Assembly (NCBI RefSeq): GCF_037023755.1
Contig: NZ_CP146100.1
Span: 6,540,501-6,604,500 of the forward strand
Direction: 5' to 3'
Length of the DNA: 64,000 nucleotides
Source: Saccharopolyspora sp. SCSIO 74807
GTDB lineage: Bacteria > Actinomycetota > Actinomycetes > Mycobacteriales > Pseudonocardiaceae
Below the pieces are notes generated by a model. The model was not told where the DNA came from, searched no databases, and was given only the letters and a program-made list of their open reading frames with translations. A program made the position numbers and the translations under genes. Shown piece after piece: positions 4,857 through 63,539 of the stretch (positions within the stretch are counted from its first letter, which is position 1; every line of letters starts with the position of its first letter).

Positions 4857-5306
4857 CTACGACACCAGGCTCGCGAGCTGTGATTCACCGGCGCACGCCG
4901 GCACGCCCTGGGTGAACGAAAGCGGAGTTTCCGGCTGCAACCGCAAATCGGCCCCGGTCACCACGTGCTCCGTGCGCACGAGGACGTTGTAGTGGTTCGG
5001 GAAGTGGCAGGCGTCGAACCCGAGCACGGTGCCCACCAGGTCGCCGCCGATCCAGAACCGGTCACCGCGGTCCAGCACGCCCGCGCAGCCGAACTCGGCG
5101 AATCCGAGGAACCCCACCCGGTCGATGCGGGCGCCCGGCTCGGCGTCCCGGTGGTCGGTGCTGACCAGCTCGTGCAGTTCGCCGCGGCGCACGCACCGGC
5201 TGGCGTGCGGTTCCAGGGACATGCCGCGTTGTTCGCGGCGGTGCAGCAGGATCTTCACCAGCGTCGCGTGCAGCGTCCGCTTGGGGCCGTCCTCTTCCAG
5301 GTTCAT
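4857..5306 (-). CDS. Conserved protein of unknown function, last gene of the minus-strand cluster operon
   Basis: The protein is 149 residues and soluble, with no signal peptide or membrane segment. Visible features are the basic start GPKRTLHATLVKILLHRREQ, a middle block GARIDRVGFLGFAEFGCAG and a motif GFDACHFPNHYNVLV with His and Cys that could be catalytic or metal-binding. I do not recognise a characterised family. ATG 5306 overlaps the stop of the upstream oxidoreductase (ATGA), so it is the sixth and last gene of a tightly coupled operon and probably takes part in the same pathway. Confidence 0.72.
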   Translation of the reverse strand: MNLEEDGPKRTLHATLVKILLHRREQRGMSLEPHASRCVRRGELHELVSTDHRDAEPGARIDRVGFLGFAEFGCAGVLDRGDRFWIGGDLVGTVLGFDACHFPNHYNVLVRTEHVVTGADLRLQPETPLSFTQGVPACAGESQLASLVS

Positions 5307-36808: not shown

Positions 36809-39800
36809 TCAACCCGCCTGCTCCACGAGCGCCGCAGGCAATGCCGCCCGCCCGCGCACCCCGAGCTTGCGATAAGCGCTGGTCAAATGCAGTTCCACGG
36901 TGCGCACGGTGAGGAACAGCGACTCCGCGATCTCCCGGTTCGTCGCCCCTTCCGCGGCCCGGTCGGCGACCCGGCGCTCGCTGCCGCTGAGCGCGTCCGC
37001 GGGCGAGCCGGTGCCGCGGCGCAACCGCCCGCCCGCGGCCAGCAACGCGGCCGAGGACAGCGCCACCTGCCTGCGGTCCCGCCGCAGCACCGACATGTCC
37101 AGCGAAGATCGCAGGTGCCCGCGCGCTCCTTCCGCATCACCTTCCGCCAGCAGCCGCCGCCCCAGCAGGTATTCGGCTTCAGCGTGCGCCAGCTTGCCGG
37201 GCGAGCCGGCCAGCGTCCGCACCGCCGAGGACAGCAACCGCAGCCCTTCCTCCCCGGGCGTGACGACACCGCGCGCGGTCAACGCCATGCCCCGCGCACG
37301 CACCGTGCCCCACCGCGCCGCCAACTCCGCGCCGTGCTCGGCGATCCGCTGACCTTCTTCGTGGCGCCCGAGCGCGGCGAGGATCCGCGCCGCGTCGTAC
37401 CACCACGCCGCGAACACCGGGTTCGTGATGCCCGCTTCGCTCAGGCTTTCCCCGCAGTGCAGCAGGATTTCCAGCGCACCGGCCGTGTCGCCGAGCGCTT
37501 CCCGCGCCCACGCCCGGGCCATCAGGTACGGGTGGTACTCGAAGGTGAACTCCCCGAAGCGGGCGCGGTCGATCCCGCGCAGCAGTTCGTCGGCCCGCGC
37601 CGCCTCGCCCTGCCGGATCAGCGCCATCGCCAGCGAGGTCTGCGGCATCGTCATCGCCCCGACCCAGGACTCCTGGACCAGCACGTCGTAGCAGGACTGC
37701 CCGTCGGCGAGCGCTTCGGCGAGGTCGCCGGTCCAGTGCCGCACGATCGCGCGGGTGCTGGTGGCCAGGCAGTAGGTCCACGCCTGCCCGGTGGCCTGCG
37801 CGTGCTCGATGAGCAGCCCCAGCGCGGCGAGCGCTGACTCGTTGTCGTCGGCCATGTACAGCGACAGCGCCGAGCCCATCAGCGCCCAGCCGCCGCTTTC
37901 CACGTCGCTGATCCGCAGCACCCGGCGGGCCTGCTCGGCGGGTTCCTCGGCGTGCCGGAAGGTGCGCAGCGTCCCCAGCGAGGACAGCAACGCCAGCAGC
38001 TGCCGCTCCTCGGCGGTGACCCCGGCGGGATCGGGCCTGCCGCGGAACCGCTCACCCGCGCTGCGCACCGTGGACTTCTCGTCCATCCCGGACAGCAGCA
38101 CCACCGCCTCGATCGCGGTGCGCAACGCCAGATCGGCGCCCGCGGGCTCCGGCCCGACCAGCGCGTCGAGCTCGTCGAGCACCCCGGAGGTCAGTTCGTA
38201 GGCGCGCACCGAGTTCTGCGCGGTCAGCGAGATCAGCGCGTACTGCGCCGCGACCGGCACCCGGCTGCGCGGCTCGTCGAGCAGTTCCAGCGCGCGTTCC
38301 AGCTGGCGCAGCGCGGTCTCCGGTTCGAGCTGGCCGAGCATCCGCGCGCACTGCACCAGCACCGCGACGTCGTCGCCGTCGAACTCGAGGACCCGCCGCA
38401 GGTAGCGGGCCGCCATTCCCGGCGCGCCGCGGTGTTCCGCGCAACCGGCGGCTTCCCGCAGCACATCGGTCATCCACGGCCGCGGCGCCGCGGGCAGCAG
38501 CAACAGCGGCACCGCCACCTCTTCGGCCGGGCGGCCCACGTCGTTGAGCAGCGTCGCCGCGCGTTCCCGCAGCCGCCGCAGCACCTCGTCCGGACTGTCG
38601 CGCAGCACCGCCTGGCGGACCGAGTCGTGCACGAACTCCGCGCAGCCGTCGGCCGCTTCGGTGACCAGGTCGCGGCGGCCGAGTTCGCGCACCGCCGCGG
38701 AAACCGTGCGCTGGTGGGTCCGCGCCAGCGCCGCGATCAGTTCGGGCTGCTCGCCCGGCAGCACCGCGATCGCGCGCGCCACCGCGAGGACCCGCGCGGG
38801 CAGTCCCTCCACAAGGGACGGCGCGACCACGGTCCGCCCGAGCTCTTCGAGCACCACCGGGTCCCAGCCTTCGCCGGGATGCTCGCGCAACCGCGCCGCG
38901 ACCATGCCGAGCAGGAACGGGTTTCCGCCGGTCAGCTGCGCGCAACGGGCCGCGAAGTGCTCGTCCGGCGCGCTGCCCGCCGAGGCGGCGAGCAGCTCAC
39001 CCGTGGCTCGCGCACCGAGCGCGGGCAGGTCCACGGTGCGGCACAGCGGCATCTCGGCGATCTCCCCGAGCATTTCCGGGCCCGCGCCGCCGTCGCCGGT
39101 GCGCTGGGTCAGCAGCACCAGCAGCGGCAGGTCCTCCGCGCGCCGCAGCAGGAAAGCCAGCCACCGCAACGAATTCTCGTCGCACCACTGCACGTCGTCC
39201 ACGGCCAGCACCAGCAACCCGTCGGCGGTGAGTCCTGCGACGAGCCAGTGCAGCCCGTGCAGCACGGCGTAGGTGCTGCTCGGCGCGGGGGCGAGGCCGT
39301 CCGGCTGCAGCGCGGGCAGCGCGAGCCGGGCGCTGCCCCGCAACGCATCCGGCCGGGGCGCATCGGGCTGCGTTGCCTCGAGCCGGGGTGCATCGGTCTG
39401 CAGTGCTTCGGGCCGCGATGCATCAGTCCGAAGTGCGTCGGCGCCGGGTGCATCAGCCCGGGATGCATCGGCCCGGGATGCATCGGCCCGGGATGCATCG
39501 GCGGAGTCTTCGGCCGCGGTGCCGAATCCCAACGGCTGGAACAAATCGCGCACCGCGCCGTAAGCTCCCGACCCCGCATCCGGGCAGCGGGCGCGCAACG
39601 TGCGCGCGGCGACCGGCGCCAGCCGTCCGAGCGCGGCGTGCAGCAGCCCGGTCTTGCCGATGCCCGCGGGCCCGCGCAGCAGAACCGCCCGGCCGGAACC
39701 GCTCCCGGCTTGCTCCGCGATCCCGGTCAGCAGCTCCAGCTCGTCGTCCCGGCCGAACAATTCGGCAGGCCCGGCCCGGTCCGCACGGGCTGGTCCCGGG

Positions 39801-43524: not shown

Positions 43525-43694
43525 GGAGATGTGCGGCGGATGGCCTGGCGTGTCCGGCAGGGTGCGGGCACCGCCAGGAGCAGGGTGCGGTGACCGCCGG
43601 GGCGGGCGGCCGGTCATCGGCGGCGGGCGGCGACACGCGGAGTCTTGGGGTGCGGGAGAGGACTCGGCCCAACATGTAGTGTGGCCGCGCTGAT

Positions 43695-43893
43695 GGTCAC
43701 CGGGGTGCCCGGTGGGACAACAGGGAACCCGGTGCGAATCCGGGACTGCCCCGCAGCGGTGAACGGGAACGACCGCCGTCACCACCTCCCCGGGTGGTGC
43801 AGCACTGGACGCCCGAGGCGTCCGGGAAGCGACGGCCAGTAGGTCCGGCGCGACGACGCCGGCTGCTCGTGAGTCCGAAGACCTGCCATCGGT
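43695..43893 (+). promoter_or_regulatory. Cobalamin (adenosylcobalamin) riboswitch
   Basis: Conserved blocks appear in the right order: GGGAACCCGGTGCGAATCC, then GGGACTGCCCCGCAGCGGTG, the B12-box-like GCGACGGCCAGTAGG and the closing GAGTCCGAAGACCTGCC. It lies 130 bases upstream of nrdA. In Streptomyces coelicolor a riboswitch in the same place turns off the class I nrd operon when vitamin B12 is available, so the B12-dependent class II enzyme is used instead; the same logic is likely here. Confidence 0.9.
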
Positions 43894-44025
43894 GCGCGCA
43901 CGAGGGGTGCGCGCTGTCCGGGACCTCGCGGGCGGGTCGCGCGGACGTGCGGTGCTGCGCGCCGCTGTCCCCGCGCGCTCGTCGACGGCCCCGGGCTGGT
44001 GTCCGAGCTTGCGAGGAGACAGCCA

Positions 44026-58385: not shown

Positions 58386-58398
58386 TCGGCGTTTCACT

Positions 58399-58594
58399 AC
58401 GGTTCTTGATCTTTGTCTTGTCAGCGGCGTAGCCGCTGAGCAGTGGCCATGCAAGCAACCGGCACCGCCGCGGGTTCTCAGCGGCTTCCTCGCGAGGACA
58501 GCGATTTCGCCGCGTAGGGGCCTACGTCAGAAATCGATCCCGGAGCGAGGAAGCCGCTGAGGTTCCGCCACCGGCACCGCCACGCAAATCATTC
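58399..58594. repeat. Structured intergenic repeat, copy A
   Basis: The element has a small hairpin CAGCGGC-GTA-GCCGCTG (58422-58438), a conserved block AGCAACCGGCACCGCCGCGG, then a long hairpin with a perfect 17-bp stem: CTCAGCGGCTTCCTCGC at 58477-58493 and its complement at 58545-58561. Inside are nested stems CGATTTC/GAAATCG and CGTAGG/CCTACG. The tail is CTGAGGTTCCGC and ACGCAAA. It fills the gap between convergent antiporter and IclR genes. Copy B at 63331 shares loops and flanks but not stem sequences. Confidence 0.85.
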
Positions 58595-58602
58595 TGAAAA
58601 AG

Positions 58603-59397
58603 TCAGGTTTCCAGGAATCCCAGCTGCGCGGAGAGTTCTTTCGCCGCTACCGTCATCGCACCGATCACTTCGCGCATCCGCTTGCGGGAGAACCGGTACG
58701 ACGGCCCGGACGCGCTGAGCGCGGCCACCACCTCGCCGTCGTGCCGGTGCACCGCCACCGCCGCGGCGTTGAGCCCGAGCTCGAGCTCCTCGTAGCTGGT
58801 GGCGTACCCGTCCCGCACGATCAGGTCGAAGCCGTCGCGCAATTCCCCGGGGTCGATGACGGTCCGCGTGGTGTACTGCGCCAGCTCCCCCGCCAGCAGC
58901 GCTTCCTGGTCGTCGTCGGGTGCGTGCGCCAGCAGCACCTTCCCGCTGGAAGTGGCGTGCAGCGGAGTGCGCTGGCCGACCCAGTTGTGCGCGGTCACCG
59001 ACGCGGTGCCGCGGGCCTGGCTGATGTTGATCGCGACGTCCTCGTCGCGGACCGCGATGTTCACGGTCTCGCCGAGGTCGGCGGCCAGCGACTCGCAGTA
59101 CGGGCCGCCCAGCCGGGGCAGGTCCAGCCGGTCGGTGGCCGCCCCGGCCAGCCGCACCACACCGAACCCGATCATGTACTTGCCGCGTTCGCCGAGCTGC
59201 TCCACCAGCCCGCGCGAGACCAGGACGCTGACCAGCCGGGAAGCGGTGGATTTGTGCACGCCGAGTTCCCCGGCGATTTCGGTGATGCCCGCTTCGCCGT
59301 TGCGGGCCAGCAGTTCCAGCACGCTCACCGCCCGGTCCACGGACTGCACGAGTGCGCCGGGCTTTTCGCGTTCGGCCGGTTGAGGAGCGTTGACCAC
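58603..59397 (-). CDS. IclR-family regulator
   Basis: The protein is 264 residues. The winged helix-turn-helix (about residues 17-75) contains SVDRAVSVLELLARNGEAG and ELGVHKSTASRLVSVL. The ligand domain contains HATSSGKVLLAH (near 148) and RDGYATSYEELELGLNAAAV (near 195), both standard for IclR. It lies next to the sarcosine oxidase operon on the same strand (downstream of soxG) and may control it. GTG 59397 is the likely start. Confidence 0.9.
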   Translation of the reverse strand: MVNAPQPAEREKPGALVQSVDRAVSVLELLARNGEAGITEIAGELGVHKSTASRLVSVLVSRGLVEQLGERGKYMIGFGVVRLAGAATDRLDLPRLGGPYCESLAADLGETVNIAVRDEDVAINISQARGTASVTAHNWVGQRTPLHATSSGKVLLAHAPDDDQEALLAGELAQYTTRTVIDPGELRDGFDLIVRDGYATSYEELELGLNAAAVAVHRHDGEVVAALSASGPSYRFSRKRMREVIGAMTVAAKELSAQLGFLET

Positions 59398-59585
59398 GGT
59401 TGGACCCGAATCCCGTCGCTGGTGGTTTTCCTAGCGACCATACCCGGCGTTCCGCATCGCGCAACAGGGTCGAAGGGCGATTCCGCTGCGGACGATACCT
59501 CCCCGATGCCCGTGACCGAGCCGGGAACACGCCGCGCAGGCAGCGGCCGTTGCTCGGCGCCGCGATCTTGAACGCAGCGCCCTGA

Positions 59586-60197
59586 TCAGGCAGGCCCGCG
59601 CAGCGCGTCCAGCAGGAGATCGGCCAGGTAGCCGGCGAACGAATTCCGCACCAGGATCCGGTAGTCCGGCTCCGGTCCGAGCTGCCAGAGCACGGCCTGG
59701 GTGCGGCCGAGCAAGGTCTGCGCGCAGTGCCCCGCGGCGAACGCGCGCGGGTGCAGGTCCAGCGAGCACACCTTCTCCAGCACGTCCCGGGCGGACCCGC
59801 CGCCGAGTCGCAGCGTGGTGCGGTTCGCGGACAGGTCGACGACCGACGCGGCACCGGCGGAACCGAGCGCGTCGCGCAGCGATGCGGCCTCCCCGTCCGG
59901 CGCCATCAGCAGCCATTCGTCCGGGCCGAGCCACAGCGCCGCCCGCTGGACGTCGCCGCCCACACGGTTCGCCTTGCGCGGCAACGGGATTCCCGCCGCG
60001 TTGCCGAGCCGCGCGAGCTGTTCGGGCGCGGCCCGCAGGTTCACCTGGGTCAGGAAGGGTTCCTCGGCGAGCCGGGTGCCGCGCGGCCCCGCGGCCGCGG
60101 CCAGTTCGGCGGCGCGGTCGGCGAGCGGGCTGCGGCGCAGCCGTTCGACGCCTGCCGGGCCGGTGGTGCCGGGTTCAACCGGGCTGATGACCGTCAC
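59586..60197 (-). CDS. soxG: Sarcosine oxidase gamma subunit
   Basis: The protein is 203 residues. The pattern RTTLRLGGGSARDVLEKVCS, with CAQTLLGRTQAVLWQLG and a C-terminal FAGYLADLLLDAL, is that of SoxG, a GcvT-like small subunit. GTG 60197 overlaps the end of soxA by 23 bases. It completes the heterotetramer with SoxA, SoxB and SoxD. Confidence 0.9.
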   Translation of the reverse strand: MTVISPVEPGTTGPAGVERLRRSPLADRAAELAAAAGPRGTRLAEEPFLTQVNLRAAPEQLARLGNAAGIPLPRKANRVGGDVQRAALWLGPDEWLLMAPDGEAASLRDALGSAGAASVVDLSANRTTLRLGGGSARDVLEKVCSLDLHPRAFAAGHCAQTLLGRTQAVLWQLGPEPDYRILVRNSFAGYLADLLLDALRGPA

Positions 60198-63018
60198 GGC
60201 GCGCTCCTTCCGGGTCGTAGAAGACGGGTTCGGTGACCTCGGCGGAAATGGCGGTGCCGCCGAGCGGGGCGTGCAGCACCTCGCCGACCCGGCCGCGTCC
60301 GCCGCGGATCAGCGCCAGGGCGAACGTCCGCCCCAGCGCGGCGCTGCGGTAGCTGGAGGTCACGTGCCCCAGCATCGGCACCGGCGGAGTCAGCGGCGTG
60401 CCCGGTTCGATGAGCTGGGCGCCTTCCGGCAACAACGCGTCGGAGTCCACCGGCAGCAGCCCGACCAGCTGCTTGCGATCGGAACGCGCGGTGTCCGGCC
60501 GGGCGAACGAGCGCTTGCCGATGCAGTCCTTGCGCTTGGAGACGACCCAGTCCATGCCGAGGTCCAGCGGGGTGACCGTGCCGTCGGTGTCCTGGCCGAC
60601 GATGACGAACCCCTTCTCCGCGCGCAGCACGTGCATCGTCTCGGTGCCGTAGGGCGTGATCCCGAGACCCGCGCCGTCCTCGGTGACCGCGTCCCACGCC
60701 GCCTGGCCGTACCAGGACTCGACGTTGATCTCGAAGGCGAGCTCGCCGGAGAACGAGATCCGGCAGATCCGGGCCGGAATCCCGTTGCGCAGCAACGCTT
60801 CCCGGACCTCCATGAACCCGAAGCCGGCGGCCGAGACGTCCAGCTCCGGTGCGACGCGCGCCAGCACCGCGCGGGAATCCGGGCCTGCCACGGCGATCGT
60901 GGCCCACTGCTCGGTCACCGAGGTGCAGCGCACGTCCAGCTGCGGCCACTCGGTCTGCAGCCACTCCTCCAGCCAGTCCAGCACCGCGGCCGCGTTGCCG
61001 GTGGTGGTGCTCATCAGGTAGCGGTCCGCGGCCAGCCGCATCGTGACGCCGTCGTCGAAGACCATGCCGTCGGCGGTGCACATCATGCCGTAGCGGGCCT
61101 TGCCCACGGCGAGCTTCGCGAAACCGTTGGTGTAGACGCGGTTGAGGAATTCCGGCGCGTCCGGGCCGACCACTTCGATCTTGCCGAGGGTGCTGGCGTC
61201 CATCATCGCCACCCCGGTGCGCGCGGCCGCGCATTCGCGCAGCACCGCGGTTTCCATGTCCTCGCCCGGCTGCGGGTAGTACCAGGGACGCTTCCACTGG
61301 CCGACGTTCTCGAACTCCGCGCCCGCGCGGACGTGCCAGGCGTGCATCGGCGTGGTGCGCACCGGATCGTGCAGCTCGCCGCGGTCCCTACCGGCCATCA
61401 GCTCGAACCGCACCGGGCGCGTCGGCGGCCGCGCACCGGTCGGTCCCAGCGCCGCTGGCGAGTCCATCCCGAGCAGGGTCGCCAGCACGCCGAGCGCGAC
61501 GATGCCGGAGGTCGCGCCCTGATCGCTGCCGGTGCCGATCGTGGTGTAGCGCTTCACGTGCTCCGGCGAGCTCAGACCGGCTTCGACCGCGCGGCGGACG
61601 TCGGCGACCGTCGCGTCCCGCGCCTGGTCGACGAAGATCTCCCGCTCGTCGCCATCGACCAGCCACAGCGGCCGGGGACGCGCGCACGTCAGGTCACCGC
61701 GCACCGCGGGCACCGGCGGCGGCACCACGCGGAACCCGCTCGCGGTCGCGGACGCGGCTCCGGCGGCGAACCCCTGCGCCAAGCAGCCGGCAAGGTCGTA
61801 CGTGCCGCGCGCGGCACCGACGATCCGCCCGTCCTTGTCCGGATCAGCCTGCTCCGGGTCCGGAACGAATCCGGCCACCACGGGATCCCACCGCAACGCG
61901 CCGGAGGAACCGGCCAGTTCGGTCGCCGGGTTCCAGCCGCCGCACACCGCGAGCAGGTCGCAGCCGAACTCCTCCGGTTCCCCGATCGGCCTGCCCCGCT
62001 CGTCCAGATCCCGCACGCGAACACCCGAAACCCGTTGTGCGCCAACGGTTTGCACCACGGCAGAGCCGATCCGCACCGGGATGCCCGCTTCGCGCGCCCG
62101 CGCGGCGAGCCGAGCGGGCGGGTCGTTCCGGCTGTCCACCAGCACCGGTACCCGAGCCCCGGCCGCGACGAGGTCCAGCGCCGTCGCATAAGCACTGTCC
62201 GAAGTGGTGCACACGACCACCTCCCGCCCCGGCAGCACCGCGAACCGGCGCACGTACCGGCGGACCGCGGAAGCGAGCACGACCCCGGGCCGGTCGTTGC
62301 CCGCGAACGCGATCGGCCGCTCCCGCGCACCCGCCGCGAGCACCACCTGCTGGGTCCGCAGGTGCCACAGGCGGTGCTGCCCCGGGTGCTTGCCAGGTCC
62401 GGGATGTTCGGCCACGAGCAGGTATCCGTGGTCGTAGTGGCCGACCGCGGTAGCGCGGGTCAGCACCCGCGTCTCGGGCAGTTCGACGAGTTCCCGCACC
62501 GCCCGCCGCACCCACTCCGGACCGGGCAGGCCGTCGACCACCTCGTCGCCGTCCAGCAGCGCGCCGCCGAGTTCCCGATTGCGCTCCACCAGGATCACCC
62601 GCGCGCCGCTGCGACCGGCCGCGAGGGCGGCGGCGATCCCGGCGGGGCCGGCTCCGATCACGACCACGTCGGCGTGCCGGTACTTCTTGTCGCAGCGGGA
62701 CTCCTCGCCCGCTTCGGCCCAGCCGACGCCGGAGAGCCTCGCCACTTCCAGACCGTCTCGCAGCTCCACTTCGGTCGCGGGCACCATCGGCTCGGGCTCG
62801 TCGAGCACCTGGACCATCGCGTTCGGCTCGCTCGCGTCGGCGGTGAGGATTCCGCGCGGGCGGCCGAGATATGGCGACGGCGCGGCCTCGATCTCGCCCG
62901 CGGCCAGCAGCGCCGAAGCAAGCGTGTCGCCGGGATGCCCGAGCATCGGCGTGCCGTCCACGGTGAACCGGACCGTGCGGCTGCGGTCGATGCGGCCGCC
63001 GCTGCCGAGCCGGGTCAT
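60175..63018 (-). CDS. soxA: Sarcosine oxidase alpha subunit
   Basis: The protein is 947 residues. A ferredoxin-like N-terminal part (TVDGTPMLGHPGDTLASALL) precedes an NAD-binding FAD domain (VVVIGAGPAGIAAALAAGRS, near residue 120). The last 370 residues form a GcvT-like folate-binding domain (MMDASTLGKIEVVGPDAPEF, then GMDWVVSKRKDCIGK). With SoxB, SoxD and SoxG it oxidises N-methylglycine to glycine, passing the methyl group to tetrahydrofolate and forming hydrogen peroxide. ATG 63018 overlaps the soxD stop (ATGA). Confidence 0.93.
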   Translation of the reverse strand: MTRLGSGGRIDRSRTVRFTVDGTPMLGHPGDTLASALLAAGEIEAAPSPYLGRPRGILTADASEPNAMVQVLDEPEPMVPATEVELRDGLEVARLSGVGWAEAGEESRCDKKYRHADVVVIGAGPAGIAAALAAGRSGARVILVERNRELGGALLDGDEVVDGLPGPEWVRRAVRELVELPETRVLTRATAVGHYDHGYLLVAEHPGPGKHPGQHRLWHLRTQQVVLAAGARERPIAFAGNDRPGVVLASAVRRYVRRFAVLPGREVVVCTTSDSAYATALDLVAAGARVPVLVDSRNDPPARLAARAREAGIPVRIGSAVVQTVGAQRVSGVRVRDLDERGRPIGEPEEFGCDLLAVCGGWNPATELAGSSGALRWDPVVAGFVPDPEQADPDKDGRIVGAARGTYDLAGCLAQGFAAGAASATASGFRVVPPPVPAVRGDLTCARPRPLWLVDGDEREIFVDQARDATVADVRRAVEAGLSSPEHVKRYTTIGTGSDQGATSGIVALGVLATLLGMDSPAALGPTGARPPTRPVRFELMAGRDRGELHDPVRTTPMHAWHVRAGAEFENVGQWKRPWYYPQPGEDMETAVLRECAAARTGVAMMDASTLGKIEVVGPDAPEFLNRVYTNGFAKLAVGKARYGMMCTADGMVFDDGVTMRLAADRYLMSTTTGNAAAVLDWLEEWLQTEWPQLDVRCTSVTEQWATIAVAGPDSRAVLARVAPELDVSAAGFGFMEVREALLRNGIPARICRISFSGELAFEINVESWYGQAAWDAVTEDGAGLGITPYGTETMHVLRAEKGFVIVGQDTDGTVTPLDLGMDWVVSKRKDCIGKRSFARPDTARSDRKQLVGLLPVDSDALLPEGAQLIEPGTPLTPPVPMLGHVTSSYRSAALGRTFALALIRGGRGRVGEVLHAPLGGTAISAEVTEPVFYDPEGARRDGHQPG

Positions 63019-63257
63019 GACGTGATCTCGTTCGTCGCGGTGTCCCGGACCAGGTCGAACCAGCGCCTGCACCCCGCGGTGTGCACCCAGCGCTCGGCGA
63101 GGCTGCCGCTCGGATTTCCCCGTACGAACAGGTATTCCGCCCAGGCGGCGTCGTCCAGCCCGGCCGGGTCGGCCGGGTATCGGACGTGCGCCTGACCGCC
63201 GTAGCGGAACTCCACCTCGTCCCGCTCACCGCACCAGGGGCAAGGGATGCGCAACAT
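63015..63257 (-). CDS. soxD: Sarcosine oxidase delta subunit
   Basis: The protein is 80 residues with the zinc-binding residues of SoxD: CPWCG near residue 6 and HTAGCRRWF near 63. YLFVRGNPSG is also conserved. ATG 63257 starts the conserved sequence MLRIPCPWCG. It sits between soxB and soxA but is separated from soxB by 282 bases that contain repeat copy B. Confidence 0.92.
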   Translation of the reverse strand: MLRIPCPWCGERDEVEFRYGGQAHVRYPADPAGLDDAAWAEYLFVRGNPSGSLAERWVHTAGCRRWFDLVRDTATNEITS

Positions 63258-63539
63258 CACGTCCCTCCACTTCGGATCATTTGGGCTCTTGTCTTCGAGC
63301 GGCGCGGGGCTGCGCCTTTTGCGTGGCGGCACGTTCTTGTGTTCGGCCTTGGAAGCGGCGCAGCCGCTTGCGGCGGACCACCTGAGCAACCGGCACCGCC
63401 GCGGGTTCTCAGGCGTCGTCTCGCGAGGACAGCTCAGACGCCGAGTAGGGCGCGCTACTTCAGGACGAGATCCCGCAGCGAGACGGCGTCTGAGGTTCCG
63501 CTAAGCGACCCACTACGCAAACCACCTTTCAAACATTCT
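63258..63539. other. Gap inside the sox operon occupied by structured repeat
   Basis: In most sox operons soxB and soxD are nearly contiguous. Here 282 bases intervene, and nearly all of them belong to repeat copy B plus a hairpin GGCGC-GGGGCT-GCGCC with TTTT (63301-63320). No reading frame is supported. Confidence 0.7.
63331..63527. repeat. Structured intergenic repeat, copy B
   Basis: It has the same order as copy A: hairpin AAGCGGC-GCA-GCCGCTT (63353-63369), AGCAACCGGCACCGCCGCGG, and a long hairpin with arms CTCAGGCGTCGTCTCGC (63408-63424) and GCGAGACGGCGTCTGAG (63478-63494), 15 of 17 pairs. The innermost stem is AGTAG/CTACT, and the tail is CTGAGGTTCCGC and ACGCAAA. The first hairpin's closing pair is A-T here and C-G in copy A, and the inner stem also differs with pairing kept. 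It lies between soxB and soxD. Confidence 0.85.

Follow-up and report, generated by a model that had tools for sequence, protein, structure and literature searches.

A pair of structured repeats in a 64,000-nucleotide stretch of a Saccharopolyspora genome (hereafter the window) belonged to an element that was mobile, dispersed and polymorphic between strains, and that sat at the 3' ends of genes. In our judgement, this element is probably a MITE-like mobile 3'-end hairpin of about 200 bp that resembles the SPRITE and BOX repeats and is used or tolerated as a terminator. The term "MITE-like" was chosen because the G+C-rich core (0.58-0.75) lacked the AT-richness that is listed as a MITE characteristic in PMC3049150. 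Arguably, AT-richness is not a defining trait for MITEs in GC-rich hosts. A high-copy structured mobile repeat is documented in Saccharopolyspora and in other genera of its family, Pseudonocardiaceae. Moreover, covariation, which is widely taken as proof of a functional RNA, arose here within a species faster than independent mutation allows, and the share of it that comes from DNA recombination rather than from selection becomes directly testable.

The two copies in the window

It had originally been predicted that the window contained two matching structured repeats whose stems differed in a paired manner. Both were confirmed where they had been predicted, with a spacing of 4931-4933 according to the reading of the window and a repeat search, and the family behind them was larger than described. 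Their parts were the following.

58388..58602, + strand: element copy 1, subfamily A (outer limits deduced from the calls of the neighbouring genes and the GG..GTTTCA-type end of other copies)
58422..58438, + strand: hairpin 1 of copy 1 (stem CAGCGGC/GCCGCTG, loop GTA)
58448..58590, + strand: conserved core of copy 1, 143 model positions (covariance-model match at contig 6598948-6599090, E 3.5e-37)
58470..58493, + strand: 5' arm of the long stem of copy 1
58513..58526, + strand: inner hairpin tip of copy 1 (CGTAG..CTACG)
58545..58568, + strand: 3' arm of the long stem of copy 1
63300..63539, + strand: element copy 2, subfamily B (limits approximate)
63353..63369, + strand: hairpin 1 of copy 2 (stem AAGCGGC/GCCGCTT, loop GCA)
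63379..63523, + strand: conserved core of copy 2 (covariance-model match at contig 6603879-6604023, E 6.3e-33)
63401..63424, + strand: 5' arm of the long stem of copy 2
63444..63459, + strand: inner hairpin tip of copy 2 (AGTAG..CTACT)
63478..63501, + strand: 3' arm of the long stem of copy 2

Copy 1 occupied the whole gap between two convergent genes. Copy 2 was antisense to both of its neighbours, which, judging from the gene order, look like the soxB and soxD genes in an operon for sarcosine oxidase. The differences between the copies were as first described: the stem of the first hairpin changed from CAGCGGC/GCCGCTG to AAGCGGC/GCCGCTT (58422-58438 vs 63353-63369) and the inner stem from CGTAG/CTACG to AGTAG/CTACT. 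The counts given for the long stem were also borne out, with 17 of 17 Watson-Crick pairs in copy 1 and 15 of 17 in copy 2, where the remaining two were G.T wobbles (by eye). Compared with dinucleotide shuffles, the folding-energy z values of the two copies were -5.96 and -2.65. In a second strain of the species (HNM0986, genome G060), one pair of the copy 1 inner tip was T-A and not G-C (GTAT..ATAC), and two loop bases were absent from the inner tip of copy 2. Just upstream of copy 2 (63317-63335), a fragment TTTTGCGTGGCGG was similar to the reverse complement of the element 3' end and may be left over from an older copy in inverted orientation.

Size and spread of the family

A search of the host genome with copy 1 gave 50 rows at E <= 0.001 (40 of 150 candidates scored), some of which were second pieces or reverse-strand matches of single places, so that the likeness of the two window copies was not due to chance. 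Copy 2 gave 40 rows in an overlapping set. A covariance model of 143 positions, built from 43 core sequences, produced 47 rows in the same genome when 150 of 7727 candidates were scored, namely at least 32 full copies (E < 1e-11), 7 reverse-strand matches of these and 8 weak or short matches. At least 37 copies were present in HNM0986 (150 of 7390 candidates scored). In a congener (G001), the first 400 kb contained 23 full copies vs 3 in the first 400 kb of the host genome; extrapolated from these 400 kb, the G001 genome would carry about 390 copies and the copy number would differ about twelvefold between the congeners.

Relatives of the element were found in at least 14 of 60 related genomes with up to 14 candidates scored per genome: all five of the genus, 7 of 31 from other genera of the family and 2 of 24 from elsewhere in the order, the last two resting on one weak match each. 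Since the candidates were scored in part, these copy and genome counts are lower bounds. When 80 named SoxA loci were examined, the majority of them from other actinobacteria, the core was present only in those of S. shandongensis, S. oryzae and Saccharopolyspora sp. HNM0986. The copies formed two main subfamilies with common loops and different arms, and in 6 of 31 aligned copies, about 13 columns were taken up by an insert or by a different interior. Two short derivatives (L021 and L022) ended or rejoined by eye inside the ACCGGCACCGC repeat that flanks the long hairpin, as if this hairpin had been deleted. Several copies in the first 400 kb of G001 (among L135-L154; cores at 39448, 366035 and 389372) had arrays of mini-hairpins directly upstream, also by eye; their stems differed and their loop was mostly GNA closed by C-G (GCGGC GAA GCCG, TTCGC GAA GCGAA, TGTGC GAA GCACA).

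A plasmid, phage or viral-contig origin was dropped since copy 1 had no match in the plasmid and phage collections and the exact core pattern had none in viral contigs. Searches of the open-access literature gave no description of the element family, and the word Actinobacteria was absent from the main text of a MITE review (PMC10969869).

Fold, covariation and the folded strand

The consensus core was a single long hairpin. Its outer stem contained G.U, U.U and U.G oppositions that hardly varied, its middle helix was variable, its internal loop (GCGAGGACAGC facing GATCCCGSAGCG) was conserved, and an inner hairpin completed the fold. A covariance model and a covariation test had been proposed together with the original prediction; across the 43 sequences, two-sided changes were observed in 22 of 36 pairs, and the covariation score was 0.382 vs 0.116 in shuffled alignments (0 of 500) and at most 0.070 when the pairing was slid. 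The prediction was to fall if only two copies existed or if stem changes did not preserve pairing, and it stood on both points: many copies were found, and 96.7% of cells retained a standard pair. Variation was concentrated in the middle helix, whose entropy in 22 G001 rows was 1.12 bits per column vs 0.18 in the other stems and 0.14 in the single strands, both rows of the inverted copy L137 being left out. The length of this helix was constant by eye except in L014, L071 and L084.

Structure counts were made on alignments fitted to the covariance model (A3 and A4), of which A3 had 104 rows from 103 copies, one copy being present on both strands. The 62 distinct middle helices in the 104 rows contained 367 Watson-Crick pairs, 52 G.T or T.G pairs, 6 A.C or C.A pairs and 9 others. 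Since the wobbles would become A.C mismatches if the minus strand were folded, the ratio of 52 to 6 pointed to the plus strand, and the strand written in the original prediction was therefore probably the folded one. A strand mutation bias (C>T) was rejected as the source of the wobble excess because the unpaired columns had no such excess (C>T 1.4%, G>A 2.1%). When the hairpin was folded by itself, the plus strand gave the more stable structure in 93 of 104 rows; when the core was folded with its tails, the minus strand folded better, and the plus strand was favoured in only 27 of 104 rows.

The orientation of the interior was normal in 98 of 104 rows, inverted in one and ambiguous in five, the latter being four diverged G029 copies and the second-strand row of the inverted copy. 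In the inverted case (L137, G001 contig C1 53260-53401), the interior lay reversed between intact arms. The loop of hairpin 1 had the form GNA or GNNA in 27 of 30 rows from the host genome, 23 of 24 from G001 and 23 of 50 from other genomes. Loops of this type are exceptionally stable in DNA, so the element may also fold as single-stranded DNA.

Gain and loss between strains

The original prediction had offered a hairpin mobile element as one reading of the repeats, and this part was supported by insertion polymorphism with target duplication and by orthologous sites that were empty in two congeners. HNM0986 belongs to the same species as the host, with 5.7 flank substitutions per kb over 22 orthologous loci (about 0.6%). 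Genome G060 was equated with HNM0986 because the contig coordinates of its SoxA match were identical. Among the 30 of its 37 copies that were compared, 22 had an intact counterpart in the host genome, three a shortened one (L334, L339, L340) and five none (L317, L323, L327, L329, L337). L323 was cleanly absent from the host genome; (C)CTA flanked the insert at either end in HNM0986 and occurred a single time at the empty host site (L123). L329 was likewise clean against its empty site (L377), with (C)CTA duplicated. A target site duplication at a known empty site, which is a MITE trait, was thus found at two sites only, with a CTA-containing duplication of 3-4 bp. The junctions of L317, L327 and L337 were unclear.

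Parts of copies were also lost. In L334 and L339, the host copies were shortened and the hairpin was lost between short direct repeats, and the host copy of L340 had a 66-nt deletion relative to HNM0986. Four host copies without a partner among the 30 compared HNM0986 copies were looked up in that strain: L165 was absent there, L155 had a gap that was shorter by about 100 nt, and for L162 and L175 the two flanks were on different contigs. L165 had no clear duplication and adjoined a terminator-like hairpin that was intact, which means that this place did not require a new terminator. The genes next to the window copies had kept their order in S. shandongensis and S. oryzae, but both copies were missing; the aligned blocks at these sites were 44 to 100 bp apart, and the gaps held simple inverted repeats by eye. 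S. shandongensis had a private copy less than 2 kb away, where the window had none.

Position relative to genes

Gene contexts were taken from a small codon-usage gene caller and not from curated annotation. Among 30 host copies, 8 were located between convergent genes, 14 were co-directional antisense, 5 co-directional sense, 2 divergent and 1 unclear. The corresponding numbers were 9, 8, 6 and 0 divergent for 23 G001 copies, and 16, 15, 8, 2 and 9 unclear for 50 copies from other genomes, some of the same genus. Convergent sites were enriched (17 of 52 vs 31 of 278 background gaps, p = 0.0003) and divergent sites depleted (2 of 52 vs 57 of 278, p = 0.0026), the background being intergenic gaps of at least 150 bp with the element-bearing gaps included. 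With co-directional neighbours, 37 copies were antisense vs 19 sense; these genes would thus mostly be read through the minus strand of the element, whereas the wobbles pointed to the plus strand. In the 36 rows from other genomes with a facing right-hand gene, the stop lay a median of 6 nt beyond the point 10 nt past the core end.

Ends and candidate mobilising enzymes

Two insertion sequences with PF13340 matches, L060 in the host genome and L358 in G003, used a CTA/TTA-type target and had ends beginning with GGGCGTGTT or GGGGTCCTTTCAGAATG; we take them to be IS5-family-like. They were about 0.9 kb long, with a DDE-type transposase gene over most of their length. Ends of the GGNNNTGTTT type were visible by eye in the element, and copy-specific outer inverted repeats were not above swapped-flank controls. 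The similarity of the element ends to those of L358 or L354 was modestly above random, and these comparisons did not establish an autonomous partner insertion sequence. L354 (G016) was an IS5-family-like element at 1341-2292 that lay inside the CTGAG stem base of a copy. It was rejected as a parent because its flanks were the element's own core, that is, it had inserted into a copy, and the repeats themselves were therefore targets of insertion sequences. The insertion sequence L092-L094 was rejected as a parent as well because its ends were unlike those of the element by eye.

In the model that we favour, an IS5-family-like DDE transposase would recognise ends of the GGNNNTGTTT form and move the element in trans, and insertion would occur at CTA-containing sites with a duplication of 3-4 bp. 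The conserved cargo would be a single-strand-specific hairpin in which the loops and stem edges are kept by sequence and the helix between them only by pairing. Most likely, this hairpin would act as, or be tolerated as, a transcription 3' end or an insulator between genes. Its arms would acquire sequence changes in coupled steps, either by recombination among copies or by template switching from one arm to the other.

Coupled changes in the arms and alternative explanations

Between the two strains, the 22 orthologous copies comprised 792 pair cells, of which seven had changed in both partners and another seven in only one. All seven two-sided changes led from one Watson-Crick pair to another, and only 0.14 would be expected if the two sides had changed independently (Poisson p about 2e-10). 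Four of the seven affected one and the same inner-tip pair, window copy 1 included; the alleles of this pair were common among other copies, which fits conversion between copies. Template switching between arms fits the paired changes as well as conversion does. Since seven two-sided changes had accumulated at a flank divergence of about 0.6%, coupled DNA events can produce covariation, which was thus probably due in part to DNA recombination rewriting both arms at once. The "selection on structure" of the original prediction was partly supported, by the wobble asymmetry, the near-fixed orientation of the interior and the sequence-invariant loops, and its argument from compensatory changes was weakened because such events can yield paired changes.

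These coupled changes are also what would be expected from a purely selfish MITE, in which 3' ends merely tolerate insertion and the structure is kept by DNA-level homogenisation of the arms without any RNA or host function, a reading to which we give a real but lesser chance. The inverted interior and the hairpin losses at short direct repeats in L334 and L339 are known palindrome effects, and arm homogenisation with spacer inversion by template switching has been reported in yeast (PMC8604942). The convergent enrichment of pneumococcal repeats was interpreted as tolerance in PMC3049150. However, a wobble asymmetry of 52:6 would not be expected from arm copying, only one of 104 rows was clearly inverted (five were ambiguous), and the loops and stem edges were near-invariant while the middle helix varied.

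It appears unlikely that the element is in the first place a structured small RNA or cis-regulatory RNA whose mobility is secondary, with the plus strand transcribed and a protein or ligand reading the GCGAGGACAGC/GATCCCGSAGCG loop. The two-sided changes in 22 of 36 pairs and the wobbles tolerated on the plus strand would agree with this, as would the core being 69% identical among six genomes (79 rows) vs 28% for the outer flanks and 29% for random segments. Against it, the orientation of the downstream gene was inconsistent, so the element was not a leader, copies were gained and lost within the species, and the copy number differed about twelvefold between congeners by extrapolation. Furthermore, a known RNA family was dropped because there was no Rfam match above the gathering threshold. 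With Rfam 15, copy 1 had only sub-threshold matches far under the cut-off (miRNA models and Ms_IGR-8), copy 2 had none, and 15 loci of other genomes had none at E <= 0.05. The only match above threshold in the whole window lay elsewhere and was a cobalamin riboswitch (43677-43904, + strand, 83.6 bits, E 4.2e-19).

More speculatively, the repeats could represent a new class of hairpin-cargo elements. A structure-reading factor would keep the loops, the helix and the orientation of the interior, template switching would continually rewrite both arms, and the cargo would be passed between different transposon ends across genera; we consider this improbable as a whole.

A REP-like DNA hairpin mobilised by a Y1 (RAYT/IS200-IS605) transposase is largely refuted and very improbable: the dispersed hairpins at 3' ends and the GNA/GNNA loops of hairpin 1 are reminiscent of it, but PF01797 did not co-occur with the element (4 of 14 element-positive genomes, not found in the other 10, and 6 of 46 element-negative ones), and two insertions had a target duplication, which Y1 transposition is not expected to make.

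Comparison with known repeats

Returning to the MITE-like 3'-end hairpin that we favour, the nearest parallel in layout is the pneumococcal SPRITE repeat. As judged by layout and position, both are short structured repeats that are enriched between convergent genes near 3' ends. According to PMC3049150, SPRITE is strongly enriched between convergent genes near 3' ends, and co-option as terminators was suggested for it. Of all pneumococcal repeat insertions, about half belong to the core and the others differ between strains. A passage there that apparently concerns SPRITE states that no comparable empty site was found. Unlike SPRITE, the Saccharopolyspora element was about 200 bp long, GC-rich and present in several genera, and it had strong covariation, a strand-biased structural core and two observed target duplications.

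By the same comparison of layout and position, it resembled BOX and RUP of S. pneumoniae as a high-copy structured repeat. The proposal in PMC3049150 is that IS transposases act on these repeats in trans by way of similar ends. The element differed from them in that its core had no array of boxB-like modules and its candidate IS5-family ends were weakly matched.

The ERIC, Correia/NEMIS and RU repeats are MITE-like intergenic palindromes that affect transcripts. As described, they are set apart from the present element, whose core was kept between genomes while its outer flanks were at background identity. In its target and ends, the element was reminiscent of the insertion sequences L060 and L358 (CTA/TTA-type target, ends of the GGGCGTGTT or GGGGTCCTTTCAGAATG kind), which differ in being about 0.9 kb long and in carrying a transposase gene. 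As for intrinsic terminators, the position of the element after stop codons fits a putative terminator role.
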